Positions 31,110-34,757 of a DNA stretch of 35,500 bases are shown one piece after another. The position numbers and the translations under genes were made by a program. Numbering within the stretch: the stretch's first letter is position 1; every line of letters begins with the position of its first letter. Source of the DNA: Bacillota bacterium (lineage in GTDB: Bacteria; Bacillota_A; Clostridia; Tissierellales; Peptoniphilaceae). The notes below the pieces were generated by a model that saw only the letters and a list, made by a program, of their open reading frames with translations, ran no database searches and had not been told where the DNA came from. The stretch lies in assembly GCA_023418535.1 (NCBI GenBank), contig JAEZZN010000016.1, forward strand, positions 1 through 35,500, given 5' to 3'.

Positions 31110-31138
31110 TTGACAATATAAGATAAATAATGTATACT
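31110..31138 (+). promoter_or_regulatory. Strong promoter of the infC-rpmI-rplT operon
   Basis: TTGACA (31110-31115), 17 bases, TATACT (31133-31138). The start point is near 31145, giving a 135-base leader before infC. Confidence 0.82.
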
Positions 31139-31144
31139 TTATAG

Positions 31145-31260
31145 GTATTCAAGCAGAGGTACCTACTCTCACCTAATGTAATAGTACATTTAGGTATAAC
31201 TTAATCAAGATTTTTGAGATAGTAGCGTAGGTATTTATGCTACTATTTTTTATTTAACTT
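31145..31260 (+). promoter_or_regulatory. Structured infC leader with attenuator, L20-leader-like
   Basis: Three hairpins can be drawn: AGAG/CTCT with loop GTACCTA (31155-31169); ACCTAATGT/ACATTTAGGT (31171-31195, one bulge); and ATAGTAGC/GCTACTAT followed by five to six T (31219-31251), an intrinsic terminator. The terminator loop contains GTAGGTA (31227-31233), complementary to TACCTAC (31160-31166), and TTAGGTA (31190-31196) offers a second partner. This is the kind of leader through which ribosomal protein L20 controls its own operon in Firmicutes (Rfam L20 leader), but I cannot align it to that model here. Confidence 0.6.
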
Positions 31261-31279
31261 ATACTTTAGGAGGTATGTT

Positions 31280-31789
31280 ATAAAAGAACTTCAAATAAAC
31301 GAGCAAATCCGTTTTCCAAAAGTAAGACTTATTGGAAGTGATGGTGAACAATTAGGTATATTTACATCTCAAGATGCTTATAATAAAGCTATAGACGAAG
31401 GTTTAGATTTAGTACTTCTATCACCAAATGCAGAACCACCTGTGGTTAGAATTATGGATTATAGAAAGTACAAATATGATCAAGTTAAGAAACAAAAAGA
31501 AGCAAGAAAAAATGCTAAAACAGTAAATGTACAAGAAATTAGATTATCACCTTCAATTCAAAAGCATGATTTAGAAATTAAAGCTCGTAATGCTATTAGA
31601 ATTCTTAGCAAAGATGATAAAGTAAAAGTAAGTATTAGATTTAGAGGAAGAGAGATGGCACATAAAGAGCTAGGTAGAGAAGTTTTAGAAGATTTCTTTG
31701 AATTAGTAAAAGACGTGTCACAAATAGCTTCAAAACCAAAATTTGAAGGTCGAAGCATTCAAATGCTTTTAGAACCTAAATCAGAGTAG
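31280..31789 (+). CDS. infC: Translation initiation factor IF-3, with an inferred AUA start codon
   Basis: 169 residues when begun at the AUA codon at 31280. The frame then reads KELQINEQIRFPKVRLIG and DGEQLGIF, the normal IF3 N-terminal domain, followed by NAEPPVVRIMDYRKYKY and the C-terminal domain ending in GRSIQMLLEPK. The full length matches the family. No ATG, GTG or TTG in this frame lies upstream of 31442, and beginning there would drop most of the N-terminal domain. AGGAGG (31268-31273) is 6 bases from the AUA, ideal spacing. E. coli and Bacillus infC use AUU, and IF3 itself disfavours such starts, giving autoregulation. AUA is inferred here. IF3 acts on the 30S subunit in start codon selection. 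Confidence 0.9.
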   Translation: MKELQINEQIRFPKVRLIGSDGEQLGIFTSQDAYNKAIDEGLDLVLLSPNAEPPVVRIMDYRKYKYDQVKKQKEARKNAKTVNVQEIRLSPSIQKHDLEIKARNAIRILSKDDKVKVSIRFRGREMAHKELGREVLEDFFELVKDVSQIASKPKFEGRSIQMLLEPKSE

Positions 31790-31798
31790 GAGGAAATT

Positions 31799-31990
31799 AT
31801 GGGAAAAATGAAAACACATAGAGGATCAGCTAAAAGATTTAAAAGAACTGGTTCAGGTAAATTAAGAAGATTTAAGGCATATAAGAGCCATATCACTGGT
31901 AAAAAATCACCAAAGAGAATTAGATCTTTAAGAAAATCAACAGTAGTAAGTAAAGCTGATATGAAGAGAATAGGAAATATGATTCCTTAG
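31799..31990 (+). CDS. rpmI: Ribosomal protein bL35
   Basis: 63 residues, very basic; the opening [24 protein letters not shown] is a classic L35 N-terminus (usually MPKMKTH-). It is a component of the large ribosomal subunit. AGGAGG at 31788-31793 overlaps the infC stop. It lies in the infC-rpmI-rplT operon and ends 11 bases before rplT. Confidence 0.96.
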
Positions 31991-32001
31991 GAGGCGATTA
32001 G

Positions 32002-32352
32002 ATGGCAAGAGTAAAACGTGCAGTTAATTCAAAGAAAACACATAAAAAATATTTAAAAATGGCTAAAGGATATAGAGGTGGAAAATCTACTTTATTTAGA
32101 ACAGCAAAACAAGCTGTAATGAAATCACTTCAATATTCATATATCGGAAGAAAACGTAGAAAAAGAGAATTTAGACAATTATGGATTGCTAGAATCAATG
32201 CAGCTTCTAGAGCAAATGGTTTAAGCTATTCAAAATTCATGGGTGGATTAAAGAAAGCAAATATAGATATCAATAGGAAAATGTTATCTGAAATTGCAAT
32301 CAATGACCCACAAGCATTTTCAAAATTAGTTGAAACAGTAAAAAATGCTTAG
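32002..32352 (+). CDS. rplT: Ribosomal protein bL20
   Basis: 116 residues, basic. [26 protein letters not shown] and the [19 protein letters not shown] segment are family hallmarks. L20 is an early assembly protein of the 50S subunit and the known repressor of its own operon in several bacteria, which fits the structured infC leader upstream. AGGAGG (31988-31993) precedes the ATG by 8 bases. Confidence 0.97.
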
Positions 32353-32573: not shown

Positions 32574-34697
32574 TTATTTCACATATGCTTTATAAACAAA
32601 TGCTTTTTGTCCCTTATATTGGAACTCAATCCAATTTGGATATTTTACTGATACTTTACCTTTCAATAGTGTACCATTTGTAAGTGTACCAAGTATTTTC
32701 CCATTTGGATTTTCTCTTACATTGAGATTACCTTTTACTATTGCTTGTACGGAAACTATATTTTCTATTAAACTTCTGTAAATATAAGCATCTTTATTAT
32801 TGTATTTTATTCTTACCCAATTTGGATTGTTTATATTCACTGTTCCTTCTACATATACAGCTTTAGCAAGTGATCCTATAATTTGACCATTTGGTGTATG
32901 TCTTACATTTGTTGGTGCAACAGCTAAACCTCTAAGCTTAATTGTATTCACTACAAGGTCTTTGTATATATAACCTTTATCTGTCTTTATCCAGTTTGGA
33001 TTATCTACTGATACAATACCTGTTACAGTTTCACCAAATTTTGCTGTTCCTATAATTTCTCCATTTGGAGTTTTTCTTACATTTGTAGTTCCTGAAGCTA
33101 AACCTTTAATATTGACAGTTTCTGAAAGAAGAGGTTTGTATACATATGCTTCTTTACCATTGTAATCAAATTTAACCCAATTTGAACCTTCTTCATACTT
33201 ACCTTCTACTAATGAACCTTGTTCAAGAATACCAATAATTTGTCCATTTGGGTTAACTCTAACATTTGTTCTTGTTGAACTAAGACCTTTGGAATCTATA
33301 AGTTCTGGGTCTTTAGGTTGACCTGGTTCTATTGGTAATTCATCATTTAATAAAATTATATTTTCTGGATTTATACCAATTTCTATTAGTTTAGATTTAG
33401 CTTCTTCACTATAAACTGTAAATTTAACTTTATTTTTTACTTCTTCACTAAGATCAAAAGTATTACTGGTTAAATAAATTTCTTTAGATTTTAATATTAT
33501 ATTCTTTAAAAATGATGTGTCACCCGAAATAACTGAGTTTCCAAATTCTTTTGATTCTTTACCAAAAGTTATTGTTTCTAGATTTTGTAATCCATGAAAT
33601 GCATTTTTTCCATAATTATTAACAGAATTAGGTATTGTTAATTCCTTTAATGATATTGTATTATAAAAAGCTAATCTACCTATATGTTTAAGACCCTCGT
33701 TTAACTTAATTTCTTCTATATACTGAGCATTATGAAAGGCAAATGGTTCTATTTCTTTTATACCTTTACCAAATACAACTTTATTTAGATTTAATGAATT
33801 ATCAAAACTATATTGTTTAATTATTTGAACACTATCAGGTATTATCATTTCAATTCTTTCTGACTTTGATGGATATCTGATTAATTCACTTATTGATTTA
33901 TTGTATAGTACACCATCAATATCTGCAAATTGATTATTATCTTTATCCACTTTAATTTCTTGCATACTTGGTGTAACAGAAAAAGCACTGTTTCCAATTA
34001 AATCAACATGTTTAGGAATAAATATTTTTTTTAATTTTATTGTTTTCGAAAAAGCCTCATGTCCAATTGTTTGTAAATTTGATTCTTCTTGTATAACAAA
34101 TTCACTTAAATGTTCACAAAAACTAAATGCTTGATTACCAATAAATTCTACCGAATTTGGTAAAATAATTTTCTTTATTTTTGATATATAAAAAGCTTTA
34201 TCATCAATATTTTGTAGTTGTGAATCTTGATTAAATTTAACTTCATTAATATATTCTGAAAACTGAAAAGCCTTATCTTGTATAGTTACTACAGAATTTG
34301 GAATTGTTAATATTTTAATATTTGGGCCATGTAATGTTCCATAAAATTCATCACTATAGTTACTAAATGCATAACTTGCAATTTCTGTAACTTTAAATTC
34401 GATTCCTTGATATATTATTTTTTCTGGAATTGTTAGTTCTTCACCTTTATAAGAAATATAATTTTCTCCATCTCCGAATTGAACTGTTCCTTGTCCATTT
34501 TCGATACTTAAGACTTTATATTTAAAATTATCACTAGTTTCAATTACTTGACCTACTTTAACTGATTCATCTTCTGATAGTTCTATATTTTGTATTTTTT
34601 CATTAGTCGTGTTCATTGCATTAGCATGCGATTGTTGAAGTAGCAAAGTTGCTGAAAATGCAAGAACACATGCTTTTAAGAATATTTCTTTTTTCAT
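32574..34697 (-). CDS. Secreted BspA-type leucine-rich-repeat protein with four SH3b domains
   Basis: 707 residues. Signal peptide (~1-27, ending SHANA), then a region (~95-400) of BspA/LRR_5 repeats with the recurring pattern L-x-x-I-x-I-P-N-S-V-x-x-I-G-x-x-A-F, then four SH3b (SH3_3) domains at about 468-525, 529-583, 587-644 and 649-707, each with TNVR/NVR-x-x-PNG-x-I-I/L-G and a NW[VI] and AY[VI]Y box. BspA proteins bind host or microbial surfaces; SH3b domains bind cell wall peptides. So it is probably a wall-attached adhesin. There is no LPXTG motif. The open frame begins 18 bases further upstream, but the signal peptide starts at MKKEIF. A palindromic operator overlaps its predicted transcription start. 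Confidence 0.85.
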   Translation of the reverse strand: MKKEIFLKACVLAFSATLLLQQSHANAMNTTNEKIQNIELSEDESVKVGQVIETSDNFKYKVLSIENGQGTVQFGDGENYISYKGEELTIPEKIIYQGIEFKVTEIASYAFSNYSDEFYGTLHGPNIKILTIPNSVVTIQDKAFQFSEYINEVKFNQDSQLQNIDDKAFYISKIKKIILPNSVEFIGNQAFSFCEHLSEFVIQEESNLQTIGHEAFSKTIKLKKIFIPKHVDLIGNSAFSVTPSMQEIKVDKDNNQFADIDGVLYNKSISELIRYPSKSERIEMIIPDSVQIIKQYSFDNSLNLNKVVFGKGIKEIEPFAFHNAQYIEEIKLNEGLKHIGRLAFYNTISLKELTIPNSVNNYGKNAFHGLQNLETITFGKESKEFGNSVISGDTSFLKNIILKSKEIYLTSNTFDLSEEVKNKVKFTVYSEEAKSKLIEIGINPENIILLNDELPIEPGQPKDPELIDSKGLSSTRTNVRVNPNGQIIGILEQGSLVEGKYEEGSNWVKFDYNGKEAYVYKPLLSETVNIKGLASGTTNVRKTPNGEIIGTAKFGETVTGIVSVDNPNWIKTDKGYIYKDLVVNTIKLRGLAVAPTNVRHTPNGQIIGSLAKAVYVEGTVNINNPNWVRIKYNNKDAYIYRSLIENIVSVQAIVKGNLNVRENPNGKILGTLTNGTLLKGKVSVKYPNWIEFQYKGQKAFVYKAYVK

Positions 34698-34743
34698 AAT
34701 TTCCATCCTTATCACATTTATTAAGTATGCCTTATTTATTTTG

Positions 34744-34757
34744 TTAGGTTAACCTAA
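34744..34757. promoter_or_regulatory. Palindrome resembling a DtxR/MntR-family metal-repressor operator
   Basis: TTAGGTTAACCTAA is a perfect 14-bp palindrome. It matches the half-sites of the DtxR/IdeR iron-box consensus (TTAGGTTAG...CTAACCTAA) with the central bases collapsed, and resembles sites reported for DtxR-family Mn/Fe regulators of Gram-positive cocci. It spans the predicted transcription start of the BspA/SH3b gene, a position suited to repression. The regulator itself is not in the window. Confidence 0.6.

Follow-up and report, generated by a model that had tools for sequence, protein, structure and literature searches.

The infC gene in the DNA analysed here most probably starts at an AUA codon at position 31280 and is translated from it into full-length translation initiation factor IF3. 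We put the probability of this reading, in which IF3 would repress its own synthesis and a probable L20 leader would add a further layer of control, at about 0.92. The DNA comes from a Helcococcus-like Bacillota bacterium (GCA_023418535.1, contig JAEZZN010000016.1, positions 1–35,500 of the forward strand), and the full 35,500-nucleotide stretch is referred to as the window. Comparison with related genomes shows the position of the start, the conservation of an AUH codon (ATT, ATA or ATC) at this position and the full-length product. The features of the locus are the following.

31110–31138, + strand: sigma-70-type promoter-like site, TTGACA, 17 bases, TATACT (11 of 12 consensus positions)
31145–31257, + strand: probable L20 leader (Rfam RF00558; 44.7 bits, E 6e-8 for 261 bases)
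31216–31249, + strand: terminator-like hairpin in the L20-like leader (mean number of such stems in shuffles, 0.0)
31226–31789, + strand: open stretch of the infC frame, with its TAG stop at 31787–31789
31268–31273, + strand: Shine-Dalgarno (SD) sequence AGGAGG of infC, invariant across four Helcococcus
31275–31283, + strand: out-of-frame ATG TTA TAA overlapping the infC start, its ATG 1 base 3' of AGGAGG and an unlikely start
31280–31282, + strand: probable AUA start codon of infC, 6 bases 3' of the SD, in an alignment column of ATT, ATA or ATC
31280–31789, + strand: infC, translation initiation factor IF3, 169 amino acids plus stop (TIGR00168; PF05198 and PF00707)
31799–31990, + strand: rpmI (L35), ATG start
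32002–32352, + strand: rplT (L20), ATG start

The infC frame encodes a complete IF3 from AUA 31280

Translated from ATA 31280, the 169-residue product scores 215.7 bits against the NCBIfam infC model TIGR00168, covering profile positions 3–169 of 170, and both Pfam IF3 domains (PF05198 and PF00707) are complete. An in-frame codon scan of the window found no ATG, GTG, TTG or CTG before 31442, in agreement with what an earlier, sequence-only reading of this DNA had stated for the first three of these codons. The first in-frame NTG is GTG 31442, with a product of 115 residues, and the second is ATG 31454, with a product of 111 residues. The product from GTG 31442 retains no more of IF3_N than its final 20 positions and falls under the cut-off of that family; a start at the AUH codon yields a complete IF3, whereas one at the first NTG does not.

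The same reading had placed AGGAGG exactly 6 bases before the AUA, and this spacing was confirmed. It is a normal SD distance, at which there is no NTG alternative. By itself, AGGAGG is not rare, with six occurrences on the + strand of the window vs a mean of 4.95 in Markov-random sequence. The weight for the AUA start rests on conservation, namely that of the SD, the spacer, the AUH codon and codons 2–7 in four Helcococcus genomes. Residue 2 of the window's IF3 corresponds to residue 2 in the solved IF3 chains 5me0_Y and 5lmn_X. In chain 8jsg_A, residue 14 aligns with residue 5 of the window's protein, so that this chain carries about nine extra N-terminal residues, and alignment within the family is not enough by itself to establish the start codon. 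Folding of 31240–31320 as a search for a local hairpin hiding the SD gave a stability no greater than that of shuffled sequences (z 0.05).

The start codon is ATT, ATA or ATC in all near relatives

IF3 was found in 59 of 60 related genomes searched (none in G055). Together with the window, these near relatives gave an alignment of 61 rows, which includes two copies from G037 and excludes a C-terminal fragment in G013. At the aligned start position, ATT occurs in 43 rows, ATA in 14 and ATC in 4, and ATG, GTG or TTG in none of the 61. An AUH codon is therefore kept at this position throughout (61/61 rows), which supports the start at AUA 31280 and the likeness to AUU-started infC genes, both proposed in the sequence-only reading. 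In 59 of the 61 rows, the distance from the last GGAGG to the start codon is 6 to 10 bases, and in the other two an exact GGAGG was not found within the 22 bases scanned. We also applied a stricter script based on SD distance, which relies on exact matches, overlooks SDs of the GGGGG type and becomes loose beyond Bacillota. It returned AUH as the sole candidate in 60 of the 61 near rows, 11 of them having another AUH codon within SD range, and made no call for L086 (GGGGG). In-frame NTG codons farther upstream are present in many of the 61 rows, at varied distances.

The window's other ATA, at 31295, lies five codons inside the gene and would give a protein beginning MNEQIRF. This is where the NCBI H. 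sueciensis protein P0001 starts, and P0004 and P0005 begin at the same residue (the three are recorded as H. sueciensis, H. ovis and H. kunzii). Against these records, 31295 sits 21 bases past AGGAGG, and the codon, number 6 of infC, is AUH in 57 of the 61 rows and non-AUH in four, whereas codon 1 is AUH in every row. Moreover, codons 2–5, which lie ahead of 31295, are conserved at the protein level, mostly as K-E-L-Q. We therefore consider a start at 31295 very unlikely.

The best relative of the window is Helcococcus sueciensis DSM 17243, with IF3 96% identical and DNA 96.3% identical over a 4,073-base alignment. This independent assembly shows the same ATA in the same context. ATT stands at the start position in H. 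massiliensis (L002) and in genome G003 (L083), whose IF3 matches P0003, a record named Helcococcus, at 169 of 169 residues. In a four-way Helcococcus alignment that starts with TATACTTTAGGAGG, ahead of the SD, and runs to the end of codon 7, the sequences differ only in the third base of the infC start.

This alignment also bears on the idea that the minimal out-of-frame ORF AUG UUA UAA (31275–31283) feeds ribosomes to the AUA by termination and re-initiation. None of the four Helcococcus differs at the out-of-frame AUG or the bases that flank it, and the UAA of the ORF overlaps the AUA in the window. However, the AUG is 1 base from AGGAGG, which is too close to an SD for normal SD initiation. 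A UAA directly after UUA exists only with an ATA start and is lost with the ATT of H. massiliensis and G003, and GGAGGTATG ahead of the infC start was found in the four Helcococcus only, being absent in the other 57 of the 61 rows. Such re-initiation is very unlikely to account for translation of infC.

Starts at GTG 31442 or ATG 31454, the first in-frame canonical codons, would yield a short IF3 without most of its N-terminal domain. One database protein, P0029, is called only from the equivalent of 31454 and is identical to H. sueciensis at 110 of 111 residues. Against a start at either codon, no SD was seen by eye before them, and the frame upstream of 31442 encodes a complete IF3 N-terminal domain that is conserved in relatives, which renders a short product highly improbable. 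An error in sequencing or assembly at the window's ATA, with ATT or ATG as the true codon, has a negligible probability: ATT does occur in H. massiliensis and G003, but the same ATA in the independent H. sueciensis assembly makes an error unlikely and ATA is present in 12 further relative rows, so that, of the two observations that the sequence-only reading had named as jointly speaking against the start, relatives with AUU at this position were found and an evident sequencing error was not.

Database records disagree on the infC start

That reading had also predicted that standard gene callers would misplace the start at AUA 31280, as P0029 illustrates and as a wider check of annotated proteins bore out. 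Among the best 120 of 7,800 called proteins over threshold, with offsets taken from local alignment, only one starts exactly at the proposed codon; 66 are longer, 25 are short by 1–4 residues and 28 are short by 5 or more. Where the start is shifted in a whole family, some of the differing called starts may be right. The G003 protein is recorded twice with different starts, as 176 amino acids (P0003, starting seven residues upstream) and as 164 amino acids (P0004). P0002, a protein from a Helcococcus sp. MAG, carries the proposed start. The AUA start would thus provide a corrected N-terminus for an important translation factor that has been given many different starts in databases.

The third base of the start codon switches repeatedly without reaching G

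For the 61 rows, we counted start codon changes by parsimony on a tree of the IF3 proteins, from which the start residue was excluded. The three codons ATT, ATA and ATC require 12 changes on this tree, none of them to G. The ATA label alone changes 8 times, 4 of these changes being forced by well-supported branches, and for the ATT label 6 changes are forced by such branches. By hand arithmetic, which assumes equal third-base rates and ignores mutation bias, the chance of 12 changes without G is approximately 0.8%, and that of 6 approximately 9%. An ATC start is commoner at higher third-position GC (Spearman 0.40; 195 of 200 rows assigned). When the start column of the 61 rows was compared with the isoleucine codons of the same genes, ATT was over-represented and ATC under-represented (p 0.005). 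The third base of the start is therefore no plain copy of codon usage, which counts against a wholly free third base.

These data tip us slightly towards the view that selection at the infC start keeps an imperfect match to the initiator tRNA rather than a particular codon, with the AUA and AUU of sister Helcococcus species as natural variants of one feedback loop that have different set points. The switching among AUU, AUA and AUC, with no AUG found in the clade and the SD remaining strong, would then be an evolutionary sign that weak initiation itself is selected, and close species that differ in the third base could offer a way to measure how the choice of codon adjusts IF3 feedback.

The non-AUG start belongs to infC and extends across a phylum sample

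A phylum sample of 149 genomes, drawn evenly, contained IF3 in 141. Leaving out G001 and G034, which were already in the first set, 139 rows were read (loci L141–L279). The SD-distance script found AUH only in 132 of these, AUH and CTG in 2, no candidate in 4 and NTG in 1, which amounts to an AUH candidate in 134 of the 139. In the remaining five rows, reading by eye shows GGGGG or GGAGG followed by ATT or ATC in the usual position. At the 80 IF3 loci of a separate search, the script had AUH as its sole candidate in 78 and came back empty for 2, a loose figure since some of these loci come from other phyla with weak SD matches.

The same alignment approach was applied to rplT and rpmI at 109 control loci (the window, the 80 loci and L083–L110). 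The start column of rplT held ATG in 98 of the 102 genes found (no match at 7 of the 109 loci), and that of rpmI held ATG in 75 of 85 (no match at 24). The 14 exceptions comprise one masked sequence and 13 cases with an ATG one to three codons off the column, which are most simply register shifts. As rpmI and rplT start at ATG, the non-AUG start characterises infC rather than the operon as a whole.

Three large genomes additionally carry divergent second IF3 copies (L280 in G125, L281 in G082 and L282 in G164) that are unlike the main infC. The codons at SD distance in these copies are ATG and ATC in L280 and L282, and ATA and GTG in L281. The AUH start may have been abandoned in extra copies of IF3.

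Upstream region and proposed mechanism of control

The scan that found the promoter-like site at 31110–31138 is weak when taken alone (3 sites found vs 2.4 expected); the TTGACA of this site is present in all four aligned Helcococcus. The probable L20 leader downstream of it scores below the Rfam gathering score (44.7 vs 58.7 bits). It lies upstream of infC-rpmI-rplT and has the terminator-like hairpin at its end. Of 8 relatives scanned, 7 gave an RF00558 match, which in one case exceeded the gathering score; L084 gave none. The L20-like leader probably adds control of operon transcription by L20.

Two further observations were made. Downstream of rplT in H. sueciensis, a sub-threshold match to RF01405 STnc490 (L001:4145–4249; 35.9 vs 56 bits) is probably due to chance. 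On the minus strand of the window, 32574–34748 is a large open frame whose translation, as read by eye, contains repeated leucine-rich-like and SH3-like units and perhaps represents a surface protein.

In the mechanism that we propose for infC, by analogy with known systems, AGGAGG six bases upstream would set AUA 31280 as the start, and the protein would begin (f)Met-Lys-Glu-Leu-Gln-Ile-Asn. The third base of the AUA would make its pairing with the initiator tRNA imperfect. IF3 would destabilise such mismatched initiation complexes, such that high IF3 lowers its own translation and low IF3 relieves it, while the strong SD would preserve basal initiation at the AUA. Through attenuation at the L20-like leader, L20 would probably act on transcription of the operon.

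Comparison with known systems

In the open-licence literature that we searched, we came upon no general survey of infC starts, although one may exist in print; the reports found there cover single species or groups. The closest counterpart is infC of S. aureus, which has the same AUA codon and an extended SD, and for which its authors suggest autoregulation (PMC13009471). There, retapamulin (Ribo-Ret) enriches ribosomes at the AUA start, so that the S. aureus start has been mapped by ribosome profiling, whereas that of the window is deduced from sequence comparison (PMC13009471). In S. aureus, three other genes were assayed as reporters with AUA or AUU starts: expression stood at about 10% of the AUG level in poor medium and, for one AUA, at up to 30% in rich medium (PMC13009471).

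The infC genes of E. coli, B. subtilis and Listeria monocytogenes have an AUH start as in the window, but their third base is U where that of the window is A, and translational self-repression is described for the E. coli gene (PMC5472188, PMC1805508, PMC6097659, PMC13068326). E. coli infC starts at ATT and autoregulates (PMC5472188). An analysis of 60,692 genomes places Listeria infC with those genes whose non-canonical start, here ATT, is fixed, and rsbW reporters in Listeria rank ATG > ATA > ATT (PMC13068326). In vitro, when AUU was decoded by anticodon CAU, more IF3 brought full-length peptide down to a share of 31.1% (PMC10158994). By analogy, weak reading and repression by IF3 would be expected at the AUA of the window. 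Streptomyces infC (ATC) and sigR (GTC) also have non-canonical, misannotated starts, though with other codons and in another lineage, and IF3-mediated repression has been shown for sigR (PMC5472188).

At the level of transcription, the B. subtilis L20 leader regulates infC-rpmI-rplT via an L20-stabilised terminator, in an operon whose infC starts at ATT (PMC6097659). The window resembles it in operon order and in having a terminator-bearing leader before infC, although its leader scores below the Rfam gathering score.

The sequence-only reading had called AUA a less often reported start. This does not hold for infC, given the 14 ATA rows among 61 and the S. aureus mapping (PMC13009471); as an infC start, AUA is no novelty, nor is it very rare, and unusual infC starts are a known device of self-control. 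What the present alignment may add to these single-species accounts is that infC, with no change to AUG seen, has switched repeatedly among AUU, AUA and AUC.
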